Shown one piece after another: positions 25,366 through 31,752 of a DNA stretch of 64,000 nucleotides. The position numbers were made by a program, and so were the translations under genes. This DNA is from Lachnospiraceae bacterium (GTDB lineage Bacteria > Bacillota > Clostridia > Lachnospirales > Lachnospiraceae): assembly GCA_017617545.1 (NCBI GenBank), contig JAFZVZ010000044.1:1-64000 (forward strand), read 5' to 3'. Within the stretch, counting starts at the first letter, position 1. The number at the start of each line of letters is the position of its first letter. Under the pieces are notes generated by a model. The model was not told the DNA's origin, searched no databases, and saw only the letters and a list, made by a program, of their open reading frames with translations.

Positions 25366-26907
25366 ATGGGTGAGGTGAAAGCCGCTGCGTACGGGGATTT
25401 CAGCATCCTCGATCTGCATGCGGACATGGAGGATTACGATTCCGGGGAGGCGGAGGTGTTCTATCAGGACCTGAACCTTCTTCAGATCATTGACCGCGTG
25501 TCCGTAAAATGGGGAAAATCCGTCAAAAAATACTTCATGCATCTGCCCAAGACAGCGGAGGAGGTTGCGTATCGCCGCTCGGTGTACGGGGATGTCAAAA
25601 AGGATACCGTGTACACAGCCCTCACGGCATTTACCGGAAAGATCGCCGAGGTTGAGAAGCTTCGCGAGGAGATGCATAAGGCATACGGAGAGATGCAGAA
25701 GGCGGTCTGGTGGATCCGCGAAGCCGAGGTGTATTTCAGCGCTTATAAGGAGCTTGCGGGTGAGCTGGAGAAGGCTGACCTTGAGTCGTCGCTGTCGGAG
25801 TTTCTCGGGATCGTGCGGAACATCCTGAACAGTGAAACGTACCGGACCATGCTCGAGGAGACACAGGGTATCCTTGCGGAGATACGGAAGCTCAGGTTCA
25901 CCGTAACGTACGACAAGGACAGGATGAGTGTCGCCCTCAAGGAGACGGAAGACGGGGAAACCTACGGGGCCCGTCTGAACATAGAGGAGAGCAGCGATGA
26001 CGCGCAGTTCACCAACCCGTTCGTTGCGGGTTCCGCGATCACGGAGTTGGAAAATGCGTGCATCGAGGTTCTGCGGAAGAAAAAGCCGGCATTTTTCCGA
26101 AAGCTTAACGAGCTGTCACAGCAGCTGACGCAGCGCGCGGAGCAGTATGATGTGCCGGTGTTTACCAGGTTCGAGCAGGAGATCCGGTTTTATCTCTCTT
26201 TCTGCTCCCTGCAGCGGGAGATGGAGCAGGCAGGGTTCGTCTTCGCCGAGCCGACGATTCGCAGAAGCGGACGCATGGAGGCCGAGGGATTGTACGACCT
26301 CGCGCTGGCGCTCACATCGATCGGACGTGGCGGAAAGGTCGTGGCGAACGACTTTTATCTCGACCCGGCGGAGCAGTTCTTCGTTCTCACAGGCCCGAAC
26401 CAGGGCGGAAAGACGACATTTGCCAGAAGTCTCGGGCAGCTTGTATTTTTCGCAAAACTGGGACTGGATGTTCCGGCCAAGTCAGCGACGGTACTATTCT
26501 TCCCGCGCATATTGACGCACTTTTCGGTGGAGGAGAGCGTGGAGACCGGGCGCGGCAAGCTGATGGACGAGCTTGTGCGGCTCGCGCCGATGATGGAGAG
26601 CACCGGAGGGAGCAGCTTCGTCGTGATCAACGAGCTCTTCACAACGGCTGCGAGTTACGACGCGGTGATCATGGGAAAGCGTGTCCTGGATCATTTTATC
26701 GAGCTCGGGCACAAGGGAATTTACGTCACGCACCTGAAGGAGCTTGCCGATGCCTGCGAGGGCGTGGTGAGCCTCAGGGCAATGCTGGATGATCGCGGGA
26801 TCCAGACGTTTGAGATCCGCAGAGGGCAGTCGGACGATACCGCGTGCGCGGAGAACCAGGTCAAAAAATACCGCCTGACTTACGAGCAGCTGAAGGAGCG
26901 TTTATGA
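25366..26907 (+). CDS. MutS-family ATPase, first of an adjacent pair
   Basis: The 513-residue protein has a C-terminal MutS domain V with Walker A GPNQGGKTT (343-351) and a Walker B-like VVINELFTTA. A switch His lies in GIYVTHLKEL. The N-terminal half is helical like the MutS lever/clamp regions; the mismatch-reading domain I is missing, so it is not a classical MutS. In Walker B the usual Asp before the catalytic Glu is Asn. It would be a dimeric ATPase clamp, possibly a heterodimer with the product of the next gene, whose ATG overlaps its stop. CGGAGG precedes the ATG. Confidence 0.85.
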   Translation: MGEVKAAAYGDFSILDLHADMEDYDSGEAEVFYQDLNLLQIIDRVSVKWGKSVKKYFMHLPKTAEEVAYRRSVYGDVKKDTVYTALTAFTGKIAEVEKLREEMHKAYGEMQKAVWWIREAEVYFSAYKELAGELEKADLESSLSEFLGIVRNILNSETYRTMLEETQGILAEIRKLRFTVTYDKDRMSVALKETEDGETYGARLNIEESSDDAQFTNPFVAGSAITELENACIEVLRKKKPAFFRKLNELSQQLTQRAEQYDVPVFTRFEQEIRFYLSFCSLQREMEQAGFVFAEPTIRRSGRMEAEGLYDLALALTSIGRGGKVVANDFYLDPAEQFFVLTGPNQGGKTTFARSLGQLVFFAKLGLDVPAKSATVLFFPRILTHFSVEESVETGRGKLMDELVRLAPMMESTGGSSFVVINELFTTAASYDAVIMGKRVLDHFIELGHKGIYVTHLKELADACEGVVSLRAMLDDRGIQTFEIRRGQSDDTACAENQVKKYRLTYEQLKERL

Positions 26908-28523
26908 AGGTTTGTCTGTTGTACGAGAACCGGGAATGGGTGAAGGGGGAGACCTATTACGACTCCGCGAGCATCGTTCAGGATCTCGGACTGAATACAA
27001 TGTTTGCCGTTGCCTCGCAGGAGATCACGTACGAGAACGGCGCCGTGAAGCAGGTGGAGAAACCGGACCAGTTCCTTGCGGAGACGATGCGGAGCGTCAT
27101 GATGGTCCCGCTCACGACGGAGGAGGAGATCCGGTATCGGCAGGAGAGCGTGGAGGACGGCCTGCAGCACGAGGAGATGACGCGAGAGCTCTACCGGATC
27201 AGCAGCGACGTGGTCCTCAGGTGGAATGATCTTGGCAGGGGATACCGTGAGAAAATGAAGCTCGGCAGCCCCATCATGCGCCTGACGGCCGATATCCGGG
27301 TGCTTCATATGTTCTGCGAGGCGCTGACGGAGATCCGCTCTCTGCTTCGGAAGGAGGAGTTTATCTCCAGAGGCTTCAAGGCGTTACGCGAGGAGCTTGA
27401 CGTGGCATTTTCCGAAGAACGGGAGGCCTCGGTTCGGAAAATCCTCGACGACATTTCGTTCTACGTCCACGGGCTTGAACACAAGGAGGACGAGAACCAT
27501 GATACGGTGGTGAAGCCGCGGATCGTGTTTGAGTGCGGGCTGGAGGACGGCCTGAAATTCAGTTCCATGAAGCTTTTAGACATCTCGTCGCAAAATGTGA
27601 GGTTCTTCCGCAGAGGAAGCACGAGGGACAAGCTTCAGAAGTTCCTCAACGGACGGATACCGGATTCATTTTCCGTGACGGAGGATGAGCGGATCCTGGA
27701 GCAGACGCATCAGCTCGAGTTCGAGTCGGTCAGCTACGTGATGCGGCTGACGAAGAATTTTACGAGGGAGTTCCAGACATTTTTCGACCAGCTGCGGTTA
27801 CAGTCGGCGTTCTGCCTCGCGGCGGTACAGCTGCGGCATCAGTTAAACCGCCTCGGAATGACCTGGTGCTACCCTCAGGTGTGCGACCGAAGGGACCTGG
27901 AGTTTGAGGAACTCCGCGAGTTCATTATGGGACTGCAGCAGCGCGTGAACGTGATCGGTAACACGTGCTCGCTTTTGCAGAAGGACCTGTTGATCGTGAC
28001 CGGAGCCAACCAGGGCGGAAAATCCACCTTCCTTCGGAGCATCGGGATCGCCCAGGTGATGATGCAGAGCGGTCTGCCGGTTGTGGCGAAATCGTACCGG
28101 AGCGGGATCTTTCCGCGTATCTTTGTGCATTTTACGCGCCGCGAGGACAGCGAGATGAACAGCGGACGTCTCGACGAGGAGCTTAGGCGTATGAACGGCA
28201 TCATCGAGCAGATCGGGGACGGGTCACTGATCCTCTTAAACGAGTCGTTCGCGACAACGACGGAGAAGGAAGGCTCGGTCATCGCGTACGACATCACGAA
28301 GGCGCTCAAGGAGGCGGGCGTGCGGATCCTCACGGTCACGCATCTTCTTTCATTCGCGAGGCGCGTCCACGAGGAGACAGCGGGACACCCGGAGGCGGGC
28401 GTCGAGTTCCTGTCGGCGGAGAGAAAACCGGACGGAACCCGCACCTACCATATGATCTACGGGCAGCCGGAGCTCACGAGCTTCGGACTGGACCTTTACG
28501 ATTCGATCGTCGGCGGGTATTGA
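26904..28523 (+). CDS. MutS-family ATPase, second of an adjacent pair
   Basis: The 539-residue protein has Walker A GANQGGKST (367-375), a Walker B-like LILLNESFATT and a switch His in TVTHLLSFA. Like its neighbour it lacks MutS domain I and has Asn in place of the Walker B Asp. The two proteins share domain order but differ in sequence, as expected for an old duplication that now forms a heterodimer. ATG 26904 overlaps the previous TGA (ATGA). It is the last gene of the operon; a hairpin with a T run follows at 28557. Confidence 0.87.
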   Translation: MKVCLLYENREWVKGETYYDSASIVQDLGLNTMFAVASQEITYENGAVKQVEKPDQFLAETMRSVMMVPLTTEEEIRYRQESVEDGLQHEEMTRELYRISSDVVLRWNDLGRGYREKMKLGSPIMRLTADIRVLHMFCEALTEIRSLLRKEEFISRGFKALREELDVAFSEEREASVRKILDDISFYVHGLEHKEDENHDTVVKPRIVFECGLEDGLKFSSMKLLDISSQNVRFFRRGSTRDKLQKFLNGRIPDSFSVTEDERILEQTHQLEFESVSYVMRLTKNFTREFQTFFDQLRLQSAFCLAAVQLRHQLNRLGMTWCYPQVCDRRDLEFEELREFIMGLQQRVNVIGNTCSLLQKDLLIVTGANQGGKSTFLRSIGIAQVMMQSGLPVVAKSYRSGIFPRIFVHFTRREDSEMNSGRLDEELRRMNGIIEQIGDGSLILLNESFATTTEKEGSVIAYDITKALKEAGVRILTVTHLLSFARRVHEETAGHPEAGVEFLSAERKPDGTRTYHMIYGQPELTSFGLDLYDSIVGGY

Positions 28524-28698: not shown

Positions 28699-29661
28699 AT
28701 GAACATTCAGGCATTATTCGGGCATCCGTTCACGGCGGAGTTTCACGGAAACGCGATCTACATGGACACGGAGTACGACATGCTGAACCTCACCTTTGCG
28801 GGGACCACGGAGGTTTCTGCCAAAGACCGTGCGGGAGACCAGCGGTCCATCGAATACGTCAACGCGATCGTGAGCATGGAGATCAGCAAGGCGCTCACTG
28901 AGCTTGCGAATAAAAAGGTTCCGTTCAAGACGCTTCAACAGCACATGAACGAGCTGAACGAAGCAGGCGCGGCTGCATTGCGCGCACAGGGCTTTACCGT
29001 GACGCAGTTCGCAGTCCGTTCCGTGGAGCCTACGGAGAGCTGCCGTAAGATCATGGCCCTGAAGGATCAGCAGAAGACGCTGGCCGCTATGTCACCGGAA
29101 CAGCTGCAGAAGCGGGTGGAGGAGGCGCAGAGACAGGCACAGGAAGCCATAGCCAAGCTTTCCCCGGAGGAGCAGCAGAAGATTAACAATGAAGCTTTGG
29201 CACAGATTGAGGCGATGAAGCGCGCGGCGGGGCCGAACGGAGCGAACGCGGCGATCGCAGGTCAGGCCCCGCTGACTGCAGGCAATATGAGAGCAGACGC
29301 AAGCGCGCCGATCCGTCCGAATCATCCAACCATTCCGTCGGGCACTCAGGAGGCAAGCGCGCCGATCCGCCCGAACCATCCGGTAATTCCGTCGGGTATC
29401 GCTTCGGAGGCGAAGGCGCTGATCCGTCCGAACCATCCGACCATCCCGTCGGGTAACGCATCGGTGGGGAATGCACCGGCATCGAATCTTTCGGCGGGCA
29501 ACGGACAGGACATGTCGAATCATATGAAGCCGGCAGGCGGGTCAACGCTTACGCCGAATCACACGGATACGGCAGCCACGGCGCCGAAGTTCTGTCCGAA
29601 CTGCGGCACGGCGACGGACGGAAGCCGCTTCTGCGGCGCATGCGGCACACGCCTCATCTGA
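28699..29661 (+). CDS. SPFH-like protein with Pro-rich repeats and a zinc ribbon
   Basis: Residues ~1-150 resemble the second half of short YdjI-like SPFH proteins (ISKALTELANKKVPFKTLQQ, GFTVTQFAVRSVEP). Residues ~150-180 are a coiled-coil-like helix. Residues ~200-256 hold three copies of an 18-19-residue repeat around IRPNHPTIPSG. The C-terminus is a zinc ribbon (CPNCGTATDGSRFCGACG). The role is unknown; SPFH proteins assemble into scaffolds and the ribbon may bind partners. The next gene also ends in a zinc ribbon of the same type, a link between the two. GGGAGGAAAAAAG precedes the ATG. Confidence 0.7.
   Translation: MNIQALFGHPFTAEFHGNAIYMDTEYDMLNLTFAGTTEVSAKDRAGDQRSIEYVNAIVSMEISKALTELANKKVPFKTLQQHMNELNEAGAAALRAQGFTVTQFAVRSVEPTESCRKIMALKDQQKTLAAMSPEQLQKRVEEAQRQAQEAIAKLSPEEQQKINNEALAQIEAMKRAAGPNGANAAIAGQAPLTAGNMRADASAPIRPNHPTIPSGTQEASAPIRPNHPVIPSGIASEAKALIRPNHPTIPSGNASVGNAPASNLSAGNGQDMSNHMKPAGGSTLTPNHTDTAATAPKFCPNCGTATDGSRFCGACGTRLI
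29299..29466 (+). repeat. Three in-frame repeats encoding IRPNHPxIPSG
   Basis: Three tandem units of 54-57 bases encode ASAPIRPNHPTIPSG, ASAPIRPNHPVIPSG and AKALIRPNHPTIPSG with 3-4-residue linkers. The DNA of the units is similar but not identical, so the repeat is maintained at protein level. Confidence 0.85.
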
Positions 29662-29721: not shown

Positions 29722-30723
29722 ATGAAGAATTTTTTTAAGAAACTGTTTGGCAAGAAATATCCGGATAGAGCCAACGGACCTTCGACGAGACACGGAAGAG
29801 TGTACGCGGGCCCCGGGTTCTTTAGAAACCGCGCGGAGGGAGTGTATGCCGGACCGCGGATGCGCGACGATGAGTCGATGCTCTGCGTCTACGCCGGACC
29901 GCCGGAAGACCTGGATCCGGAAGTTGAGGACGTCGTCCTCGAGGAAGTTTACAACGGCCCCGGAATGATGGACGAGATCGGATGGGGCGGGGAGCCGGAT
30001 CCCATCGAGGAGCCCGACGCTGAGCCCGATGTCGAACCGGTTTCGGAACCTGACGCAGAGCCCGAAACGGAGCCTGTCGCGGAGCCGGACAGTACATCTT
30101 CGGAAAATGAAGCAGAGAAACCGGCAGAGGATGCTGCGCAGGCAACAAAGCAGGTGCCTGAGGATGATCCGTTGGCACCGGAGTTTATCGAGGATGACCC
30201 TGCCGCGCCGGAATTGATCGACGAGGACGCATCCGGGGAGGAGTCTGCGGAGGAACCCGATGCGGAAGAGCCCACGTATGATAACGAGAGATACGACGAG
30301 GATGATTTCCGGGATATGTCGGCCCCCAATCCGTTTGAGTCTTTGATGGTAGCTGCATATGCAGGGCCGCCGGTGCAGAACGTTCCCATCGGATTAGTGT
30401 ATGCGGGGCCGAACAATATGCCGAATCCTGCGATGCAGCCCAACCCCAATTTGCTGATGACAATGATGGCGTACTTCGGACCGGGTGGTCCGAACGGTCC
30501 GGCTGGAATGCCCGGCATGATGATGCAGCAGCCTGCACAGCCGGTGGATCCTTCGGTGGATCTGGTTCGTCAGGAACACAAATTCTGCCCGAACTGCGGC
30601 GCAGTTGTTCCTCCGACACAGAAATTTTGCAACGAGTGCGGAACGAATCTGTCGAACGAACCGATCCAGAAGGGGATCGCGGTTGACGCAGGGGAGGAGA
30701 CGCCTTCCGATACGGAGGAGTGA
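29722..30723 (+). CDS. Acidic protein with seven Y-x-G-P motifs and a zinc ribbon; candidate radical SAM substrate
   Basis: The 333-residue protein starts with a basic amphipathic MKNFFKKLFGKK. It then has four motifs, VYAGP (27-31), VYAGP (41-45), VYAGP (56-60) and VYNGP (76-80), an acidic Glu-Pro-Asp-rich region (91-205), and three more, AYAGP (212-216), VYAGP (226-230) and AYFGP (250-254). It ends with a zinc ribbon (C289, C292, C303, C306). The spacing of the motifs is irregular, so they look like conserved sites rather than a structural repeat. The radical SAM/SPASM gene starts 9 bases after its stop. I infer it is the enzyme's substrate or partner. No known family was recognised. Confidence 0.7.
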   Translation: MKNFFKKLFGKKYPDRANGPSTRHGRVYAGPGFFRNRAEGVYAGPRMRDDESMLCVYAGPPEDLDPEVEDVVLEEVYNGPGMMDEIGWGGEPDPIEEPDAEPDVEPVSEPDAEPETEPVAEPDSTSSENEAEKPAEDAAQATKQVPEDDPLAPEFIEDDPAAPELIDEDASGEESAEEPDAEEPTYDNERYDEDDFRDMSAPNPFESLMVAAYAGPPVQNVPIGLVYAGPNNMPNPAMQPNPNLLMTMMAYFGPGGPNGPAGMPGMMMQQPAQPVDPSVDLVRQEHKFCPNCGAVVPPTQKFCNECGTNLSNEPIQKGIAVDAGEETPSDTEE

Positions 30724-30732
30724 TCACGACAT

Positions 30733-31752
30733 ATGTATAATCTGAGAATGTGCGTGTGGGAGATCACGCTTGCGTGTTGTTTCTCCTGCAAATACTGCGG
30801 TTCCGCGGGCGGCAAAGCGCGCGAGAACGAGCTCACGACCGAGGAGTGTCTTTCGGTCGCGGATCAGCTCGCCGAGCTCGGTTGTCAGCGTGTGTCCATG
30901 ATCGGCGGTGAGGTGTTCATGCGCCGTGACTGGAAGGACATCGTGAAGCGACTGACCGATCAGGGCGTGCGGGTCAACATCATTACGAACGGGTTCATTT
31001 TCCGAGAGAGTCTGATCGAGGATCTCAAGGAAGTGAATATCGAATCCATCTCGGTTTCGCTGGACGGGCCGAAGGAGGTTCACGACAAATACCGCCAGGA
31101 GGGCAGCTACGACCGTGCGATCCGCGCAATCGAGGAGCTGTTGTCCGCGGGGATTCCCGTGTCGGTCATCAGCACGCTGAACAGTGAAAACGCGAAACTG
31201 CTCGGCGAATTATATAAGATCTTGCGCAAATACAGCCTCTACGCATGGCAGCTGCAGGCATGCTCGCCGATGGGCAACGCGGCCAACAACGGCATCGCGT
31301 TTCAGTTCGACATGCAGGAGGTCATCGATTTCGTCGTCGCCAACATGTACAAGGCGCCGTTTGCCATGGGTGTTGCGGACAACATCGGGTATTTTACGGA
31401 GGCCGAGGGTTCGATCCGCGGCAACCTGAGCGGCAAGGCATTTTTCAAAGGCTGCTCGGCGGGCATCTCGGCGATCGGCATCGACAGTGTCGGCAATGTG
31501 CGCGGCTGCGAGTCGATGTACGACGAACGCTTCAACGAGGGCAACCTTCGCAATGAGTCCCTGCGGTCGATCTGGGAGGATCCCGACCGCTTCGCATATA
31601 ACCGCAAGTTCCGCAAGGAGCTTCTCACCGGAAAATGCGCCGAGTGCGAGCTCGGCGAGTACTGCGCGGGCGGATGCCGATCCTACAATTACTTTGTGCA
31701 CGGCAAGCTGTACGAGTCGCCGTTCTGCGCGGGTGGTGCGAAGAGGGGCTGA
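30733..31752 (+). CDS. Radical SAM/SPASM maturase-like enzyme
   Basis: The 339-residue protein binds a radical 4Fe-4S cluster through C15-x3-C19-x2-C22 and has the usual GGE motif (MIGGEVF) and SLDGP. The C-terminus is a complete SPASM domain: C241...G254-x4-C259, then C302-x2-C305-x5-C311-x3-C315 and C332, enough for two auxiliary clusters. SPASM enzymes commonly modify peptides or proteins (sactipeptide, PQQ and mycofactocin maturases). The total length is short and there is no separate peptide-recognition (RRE) domain visible. It starts 9 bases after the Y-x-G-P protein gene, with GGAGGAG at the end of that gene as ribosome site, so the two are tightly coupled. Confidence 0.93.
   Translation: MYNLRMCVWEITLACCFSCKYCGSAGGKARENELTTEECLSVADQLAELGCQRVSMIGGEVFMRRDWKDIVKRLTDQGVRVNIITNGFIFRESLIEDLKEVNIESISVSLDGPKEVHDKYRQEGSYDRAIRAIEELLSAGIPVSVISTLNSENAKLLGELYKILRKYSLYAWQLQACSPMGNAANNGIAFQFDMQEVIDFVVANMYKAPFAMGVADNIGYFTEAEGSIRGNLSGKAFFKGCSAGISAIGIDSVGNVRGCESMYDERFNEGNLRNESLRSIWEDPDRFAYNRKFRKELLTGKCAECELGEYCAGGCRSYNYFVHGKLYESPFCAGGAKRG

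Follow-up and report, generated by a model that had tools for sequence, protein, structure and literature searches.

In a 64,000-nt stretch of DNA from a Lachnospiraceae bacterium (GenBank assembly GCA_017617545.1, contig JAFZVZ010000044.1, positions 1 to 64,000; hereafter the window), a gene encoding a protein with seven Tyr-x-Gly-Pro motifs is directly followed by a gene encoding a radical S-adenosylmethionine (SAM)/SPASM enzyme. We regard it as nearly certain that the pairing of these two genes, and selection on the short motif, or tag, that recurs in the first one, are real. The nearly constant neighbour of the enzyme changes fast, and short Val-Tyr-Ala-Gly-Pro tags are all that it preserves; the enzyme therefore very probably edits these tags. 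Whether the enzyme represents a new splicease-like subfamily, working in a two-gene protein-maturation system that edits V-Y-A-G-P tags probably via tyramine excision, is in our judgement evenly balanced. What is known of SPASM enzymes concerns mainly peptides and cofactors. An earlier note on this DNA had proposed a candidate peptide-modification system of this kind; its pairing of the two genes stands, and the motif with its tyrosine proves to be under selection; its view of the motif protein as the precursor of a ribosomally synthesized and post-translationally modified peptide (RiPP) finds no support, and a probable kinship with splicease-type (PlpX) and GDL enzymes had been overlooked.

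The gene pair in the window

The motif protein (acidic, 333 amino acids, 29722..30723, + strand), defined from its open reading frame (ORF) and translation, has relatives at two of the loci described below, L079 and L080. From a basic N-terminus it runs through a YP element (YPDRAN, a possible recognition site of the YPx[NRS] class, 29758..29775, +) and four Y-x-G-P motifs to an acidic linker region, three C-terminal Y-x-G-P motifs and, at the C-terminus, a zinc ribbon (residues 288-310, 30583..30651, +; PF13240, E 9.1e-8). Motifs 1 to 3 read VYAGP (residues 27-31, 41-45 and 56-60; 29800..29814, 29842..29856 and 29887..29901), motif 4 VYNGP (76-80; 29947..29961), motif 5 AYAGP (212-216; 30355..30369), motif 6 VYAGP (226-230; 30397..30411) and motif 7 AYFGP (250-254; 30469..30483), all on the + strand. 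The translation places the seven motifs exactly where the earlier note had them, at residues 27, 41, 56, 76, 212, 226 and 250, and the domain match bears out its C-terminal zinc ribbon. Seven of the ten tyrosines of the protein are held by Y-x-G-P and an eighth lies in the KKYPDRAN element; in 20,000 shuffles Y.GP arose 0.11 times on average and three times at most, compared with the seven observed. DNA-level repeat expansion as the origin of the copies was ruled out, since they differ in their codons.

The enzyme gene (339 amino acids, 30733..31752, +; PF04055, E 2.2e-27; PF13186, E 2.6e-7) starts 9 bases after the stop of the motif gene, and a GGAGG lies within the 3′-end of the latter. Because of this short gap and the position of the GGAGG, translation of the two genes is probably coupled. 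As the earlier note had claimed, the gene is complete: the product carries both the CX3CX2C of radical SAM enzymes (C15, C19 and C22) and the seven-Cys set of SPASM (C241, C259, C302, C305, C311, C315 and C332), by which the class is recognized. In an alignment with 45 relatives C332 was nearly invariant and all the other cysteines were fully so. A domain scan found no domain in the enzyme beyond radical SAM and SPASM. An annotation artefact was ruled out by the like arrangement at 76 of 80 loci.

Pairing across genomes and selection on the motif

We searched a species-level collection of 84,980 genomes, in which 205 stretches encode relatives of the enzyme, and kept the best 80 of them (65-96% identity). 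The scan was seeded by two exact peptide patterns, QACSPMGN and VRGCESMY, and could not reach enzymes that have neither; the genomes behind the 80 loci are in many cases those of the genus and family samples described below. By record title, the hosts are rumen, gut and faecal Lachnospiraceae and other Clostridia. A strict motif was defined as [VIATLMC]Y-x-[GA]-P, with Pro fixed at +3, only Gly or Ala at +2 and one of seven residues at -1. The upstream substrate was the + strand ORF of at least 40 amino acids ending near the enzyme start, the one with most motifs being chosen, and control ORFs had at least 70 amino acids; ORFs began at the first ATG, GTG or TTG, hence lengths are upper bounds.

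An ORF with the strict motif lay directly upstream of the enzyme at 76 of the 80 loci, with at least two motifs in 68 and a single one in 8. Among the four strict misses, three (L138, L145 and L146) carry VYA[PS]P motifs together with a YPxN element, which raises the count to 79 of 80 with the variant. By comparison, the strict motif was present in 8 of 450 other neighbouring ORFs, one of them probably a second substrate (L135), and [VIATLMC]YA[PS]P in 4 of 450. At one locus (L008, the same as that of L080) two tandem VYAGP proteins, with five and eight motifs, precede a single enzyme. Thirteen pattern matches in viral contigs were also inspected, none of which encodes a relative of the enzyme.

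The genus and family samples gave a similar picture. Within the genus, the enzyme is encoded in 16 of 22 genomes (16 of the 41 searched in all), the other copies being 72-96% identical to the window enzyme, and a Y-x-[GA]-P ORF is found directly upstream in all 16. In the family sample it is encoded in 14 of 397 genomes, own genome included, at 63-100% identity, with a clean gap in identity between these enzymes and a second, sister group at 36-38%. Eight of these 14 have an upstream ORF with at least two motifs; four have one strict motif upstream, alone or beside doubtful ones (TYAGP at L061, LYAAP at L065, VYAAP at L068 and VYAAP at L053, the last in a kinase-FHA protein); and in two the motif protein lies just downstream instead, either on the same strand as the enzyme (L070, 1058-1483, - strand, CVYAGP) or convergent with it on the opposite strand (L069, 4617-5018, - strand, with the variant IYAPP). 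Thus, the claim that enzyme and motif protein belong together is upheld by each of the 14 genomes with the enzyme in the family sample and by 76 loci under the strict motif (79 with VYA[PS]P), and the co-occurrence of Y-x-G-P proteins with this SPASM subfamily, which the earlier note had proposed to look for, is found at 76 to 79 of the 80 loci. Homologues of the motif protein lacking a radical SAM neighbour, which it had named as counter-evidence, did not appear among exact VYAGP matches in the genus: a search of the six enzyme-less genomes of the genus returned seven matches, and none of the five read lies in a multi-motif ORF.

The strict pattern retrieved 283 motifs in the 76 substrates (median 3 each, range 1 to 9), while shuffled sequences give 3.8. 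Val occupies position -1 in 83% of them, Ala position +1 in 86% (Gly in 4%), Gly or Ala position +2 (88% and 12%) and Pro position +3, the percentages at -1, +2 and +3 being partly or wholly set by the search pattern. The residues seen at Y+1 are A, M, G, N, F, Y and S; M, F or Y are common at +5 and +6, and a hydrophobic residue stands at -4 in 231 of 284 motifs. Since the variants VYACP, VYASP and VYAPP also occur, position +2 may be read as any small residue or Pro.

Codon comparison supported the claim that the motif with its tyrosine is the part under selection. When the window protein is compared with its nearest relative, that of L079, 34 of 35 motif residues are identical, against 121 of 234 (52%) elsewhere, and the motif codons differ by 21 synonymous changes and one non-synonymous change. 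Five further pairs behaved alike, with 33-35 of 35, 20 of 20 or 15 of 15 motif residues identical, 45-86% identity elsewhere, and 0 to 2 non-synonymous versus 9 to 19 synonymous changes in the motif codons. These results bear on the explanation that the motif protein is an ordinary scaffold sharing an operon with an unrelated SPASM enzyme that makes a peptide or cofactor. Zinc-ribbon proteins are indeed common, and short low-complexity proteins are generally known to gain repeats easily; however, adjacency at 76 to 79 of 80 loci amid variable neighbourhoods, strong purifying selection on the motif and the absence from the genus, as far as exact VYAGP reveals, of a motif protein without enzyme make this explanation scarcely credible.

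A second conserved element accompanies the motif. YPx[NRS] is present in 60 of 76 substrates versus 29 of 465 control ORFs, and any YP in 69 of 76, so that this element may be a docking or recognition site for the enzyme. Its conservation, together with the varying number of motifs (1 to 9), would also suit a scheme in which the motif itself serves for docking, the target of the enzyme being the YPxN tyrosine, the zinc-ribbon cysteines or a third protein. We consider this scheme improbable: the zinc-ribbon-like Cys pattern, found in 61 of the 76 substrates, is missing from 15, any YP is missing from 7, no third gene is widely conserved among neighbouring ORFs of at least 70 amino acids, and the motif repeats are the constant part of the substrate. 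The 15 substrates without the Cys pattern also led us to reject thioether formation on the zinc ribbon. Conservation of the tag points to its tyrosine as the modification site, an assignment that we make with good, though not complete, confidence.

Tags on unrelated proteins and the surroundings of the enzyme

Substrates range from 52 amino acids (in an ORF cut by the contig end) to 406, with a median of 189. Beyond the zinc-ribbon proteins, the tag is found in the linker or tail of an FHA protein (L147), a kinase-FHA protein (L053) and a WXG100 protein (L151). It also occurs in trans: in two enzyme-bearing genomes, on contigs other than that of the enzyme, the tails of PAP2 membrane proteins carry two VYAGP each (L171/L243 and L179/L240; PF01569 for L179), placed after a KYPHG or EYPDT stretch. 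A PAP2 homologue is present in 15 of 22 genus genomes, and three of five tails compared are without the tag. Because the motif is also carried by FHA, kinase-FHA, WXG100 and PAP2 proteins, V-Y-A-G-P is a portable tag and not a RiPP core.

Away from the enzyme, exact matches stay at background. Among 67 coding VYAGP matches in the DNA of the 22 genus genomes, counted by hand, 45 fall within the enzyme locus and 22 outside it (four in PAP2 genes), compared with 49 for the reversed pattern. The degenerate DNA pattern TAYGCNGSNCC has 48 matches in the own genome (five at the locus) versus 104 for its reverse.

Some of the tagged proteins deserve separate mention. Directly before a related enzyme, L151, L152 and L156 encode WXG100 proteins (the latter two assigned by eye) with an LYGAP/LYAAP tail, hinting at a possible link to type VII secretion. 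At L094/L013 the tag protein is in frame with a KsgA-like methyltransferase (by eye) and reads as a fusion of 395 amino acids; at L012 and L017-L020 tag protein and KsgA-like protein are separate neighbours.

The surroundings of the enzyme offered little to suggest a RiPP cluster. We clustered neighbouring ORFs of at least 70 amino acids within 4 kb of the enzyme at the 80 loci, a length at which small genes for RiPP recognition elements (RREs) could escape. Clustering recovered the enzyme at 68 of the 80 loci and one substrate cluster at 40; the next clusters comprised 13 loci (with a longest member that reads antisense to the enzyme gene), 8 loci (ABC-ATPase-like) and 6 loci (KsgA-like), both of the latter named by eye. 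No widely conserved third gene and no conserved peptidase, transporter or RRE was seen among these ORFs. NCBIfam searches of the window protein and 10 substrates, and Pfam searches of 10 substrates, revealed no Nif11 or NHLP leader, and no conserved Cys that could act as a thioether donor, as in sactipeptides and ranthipeptides, occurs in or around the motif. With no conserved peptidase, transporter or RRE among these ORFs, and with the motif present on unrelated proteins, the reading as a RiPP precursor with a core is not supported.

Upstream of the pair, positions 28699-29661 of the window encode a zinc-ribbon protein, SPFH-like by eye, with three IRPNHP-x-IPSG repeats that resemble the PIRP part of the PlpA2 splice tag discussed below and have no Tyr. 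It was considered as a second substrate and set aside because a look through the + frames of seven near-relative loci, two of which (L081 and L085) have less than 2 kb upstream, did not reveal the repeat. Further upstream (25366-28523), two adjacent MutS domain V proteins of 513 and 559 amino acids follow a 1710-amino acid DUF5724/DUF4132/DUF7737 protein. None of the families around the window pair (MutS-like, DUF4132, zinc uptake) recurs among the 80 loci.

Enzyme kinship and the predicted reaction

Of the NCBIfam models, the one scoring highest against the window enzyme is TIGR04103 ('nif11-class peptide radical SAM maturase 3', 234 bits), which we take to be the same as IPR026482, and the second is TIGR03913 (209.5 bits). 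TIGR04103 also comes first for the relatives L048 and L053 and for three of four sister-group enzymes, the fourth (L055) preferring TIGR03913. Enzymes beside VYAGP proteins form one clade, here clade A, with support of 100/100 in a first tree, which left out two own-genome paralogues meant as outgroup, and of 99/99 in a second. A branch supported at 100/97 sets clade A, the sister group, a Nostoc 'nif11-class maturase 3', a Tropicibacter enzyme and two GDL maturases apart from MftC and TIGR04053. Members of this group share a WQxQ (residues 172-175 of the window enzyme) in 27 of 28 cases, followed by MG[NQ] in 25, while MftC, TIGR04053 and TIGR04133 lack it, W alone being present in two of these three outsiders. 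The window enzyme is about 33% identical to the Nostoc enzyme and about 30% identical to MftC (123 bits). PlpX has been placed in IPR026482 (PMC11002830). On sequence grounds, the kinship of the enzyme is shown at the level of this group, which holds GDL maturases and, by its annotated Nostoc member, probably the PlpX type as well. Among solved structures, a sequence search with the enzyme returned 14 sequences, none of them named a splicease, the best being SkfB (6efn, E 3.6e-27).

The proteins encoded beside these relatives also resemble each other. In the sister group there are KYGYP repeats (L022, L055, L056 and L189), KYGVP beside a transporter that looks C39-type by eye (L059/L073), PYGFP, EYGFP or DYGFP in dockerin-like and SLH-like proteins, also by eye (L192-L194), and, at L190 and L191, small peptides with DYG or HYG that have no Pro at +3; in total, an XYG protein was found at 10 of 17 sister-group loci. 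The Nostoc Nif11 peptide, which ends in ...SIALYGLPPELF, holds LYGLP, and six GDL-type (DUF1843) peptides have, near their starts, LYAAG, MYAAS, PYGAG, LYGGA, PYGVA and MYMAT. Ala or Met at Y+1 is common to the GDL peptides and to VYAGP/VYMGP. As far as such gene-encoded peptides tell, the whole enzyme group shares X-Y-(small)-x, in many cases with Pro at +3. The X-Y-[AGM]-x near the starts of the DUF1843 peptides at the GDL loci L258 and L259 suggests that GDL maturases (TIGR03913) act on this tyrosine. Similarly, the KYGYPC repeats or terminal PYGFP beside the sister enzymes L055, L056, L189, L192, L193 and L194, some in SLH- or dockerin-like proteins, mark these loci as candidates for XYG protein splicing on exported proteins.

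Comparison with these systems shows how far the likeness extends. With the GDL/DUF1843 maturases the window enzyme shares its second-best model, its side of the tree and a Tyr followed by A, G or M; GDL systems differ in their larger enzyme, in the lack of Pro at Y+3 and in their short peptides, of which both loci read encode three. The XYGxP systems of Clostridia likewise place a radical SAM/SPASM enzyme beside repeated Tyr motifs (KYGYPC, PYGFP), with both protein and peptide substrates, but have Gly at Y+1, enzymes that are mostly larger (about 480-500 amino acids) and some substrates that look exported. The PlpXY splicease resembles the window system in its best NCBIfam match, in falling, through the annotated Nostoc member, on one side of the 100/97 branch, in WQxQ (in Nostoc) and in a motif centred on Tyr with a small residue at Y+1; Pro stands at Y+3 both in the Nostoc peptide and in the PlpA2-derived splice tags PIRP[LG]YGLPI, which in FtsZ were modified at some positions and not at others (PMC10533398, in the part available). 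It differs in X-Y-G as against X-Y-A-G-P, and here the substrates are whole proteins with repeated tags, without a Nif11 or NHLP leader and with no RRE gene seen. The same part of that paper describes PlpXY acting also on leader-free tags inside whole proteins and mentions 939 predicted splicease systems, among which some of the Clostridia XYGxP systems perhaps figure. By description only, TvgB/poly-cyclopropylglycine is also comparable, a SPASM enzyme acting on the repeated short motif TVGG, which unlike ours has no tyrosine (PMC9062424, in the part available).

Because A or M at Y+1 and the X-Y-(small)-x register are shared with the group, tyramine excision would be our first choice for the reaction, which we propose tentatively, as somewhat short of an even prospect. 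Other chemistry on the tyrosine is a possibility of real, if lesser than even, weight: a cross-link of its ring or beta carbon to Val at -1, Ala at +1 or a Met or aromatic residue at +5/+6, a desaturation or an epimerisation, giving small rigid loops in a disordered protein. Val at -1 in 83% of motifs and the frequent Met, Phe and Tyr at +5/+6 agree with it. MftC, whose target is the C-terminal Val-Tyr of its precursor, is likewise a SPASM enzyme acting on Val-Tyr, yet one with a short dedicated precursor, about 30% identity and no WQxQ. That SPASM enzymes do perform such reactions is exemplified by mycofactocin maturation, in which Tyr, decarboxylated, becomes linked to the Val beside it (PMC8326336). 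On the other hand, a fixed cross-link partner is hard to name, because Y+1 varies and Y+2 is mostly Gly, which has no beta carbon; thioethers find no conserved Cys in the motif; and the relatives that share WQxQ go with X-Y-small motifs.

Several observations weigh against a splicease-like enzyme dedicated to these tags. At one of the 80 loci (L087) an enzyme 83% identical to ours is without any motif protein. The score of 234 bits is far from the TIGR04103 cut-off of 725 bits. Branching order inside the 100/97 side is unsettled, TIGR04133 falls on the same side with a very long branch, and the tree has three other SPASM families as its only outgroup and does not contain PlpX itself. Clade A has a long stem; therefore, its chemistry may have changed, which leaves room for a novel reaction such as those just described. 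No PlpY-like RRE gene was seen among the ORFs of at least 70 amino acids compared, and the one PqqD-family match of the own genome lies 120 kb away, though a truncated RRE could escape the model. No XYG protein was seen at 7 of the 17 sister loci (L054, L057, L058 and L195-L198, the last four read over about 1.5 kb per side), and the Nostoc, GDL and sister-group relatives are candidate spliceases. Finally, the proven splicease motif is X-Y-G (PMC10533398 and PMC11002830), whereas 86% of the motifs described here have Ala at Y+1 and 4% have Gly.

Under the splicease-like reading, the enzyme would recognize a tag approximating hydrophobic-x-x-[VLA]-Y-[A/small]-[G/A/S/C/P]-P within disordered stretches of the neighbouring gene's product, and probably also in a few proteins encoded elsewhere. 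It could dock on the YPxN element and then visit each tag, where hydrogen abstraction by the 5′-deoxyadenosyl radical would lead to modification of the tyrosine. If the enzyme is a splicease, Val-Tyr-Ala would become Val(keto-beta)-Ala with a calculated loss of ∼135.07 Da (C8H9NO), which could happen as many as seven times per molecule of the window protein. The protein would remain in the cell as a modified scaffold rather than being cut to a peptide. Speculatively, the ketoamides might then capture partners through the amines or thiols of these. Under motif, splicease or SPASM terms we found no description of a VYAGP-enzyme system, most subscription papers lying outside the search; among the papers listed for the motif, the single match was VYAGP in a gel-chemistry paper, none of the others having YAGP, VYGP or YxGP.

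It is possible, though we hold it as doubtful, that the V-Y-A-G-P tag and its dedicated SPASM enzyme serve the backbone editing of ordinary intracellular proteins (zinc-ribbon scaffolds, FHA, kinase-FHA and WXG100 proteins and, in trans, a PAP2 membrane phosphatase), with reactive ketoamides that serve regulation or assembly in these gut and rumen Clostridia and are not part of a natural-product pathway. If true, bacteria would have a further, novel means of modifying ordinary proteins, and radical-based editing would become a general protein modification, with relatives of the enzyme in 205 stretches (the best 80 of which were read) and up to nine tags per protein. It would also provide a new genetically encoded tag of five residues that is leader-free, internal and repeatable, and the two-gene unit would make the purpose of protein spliceases an approachable question.

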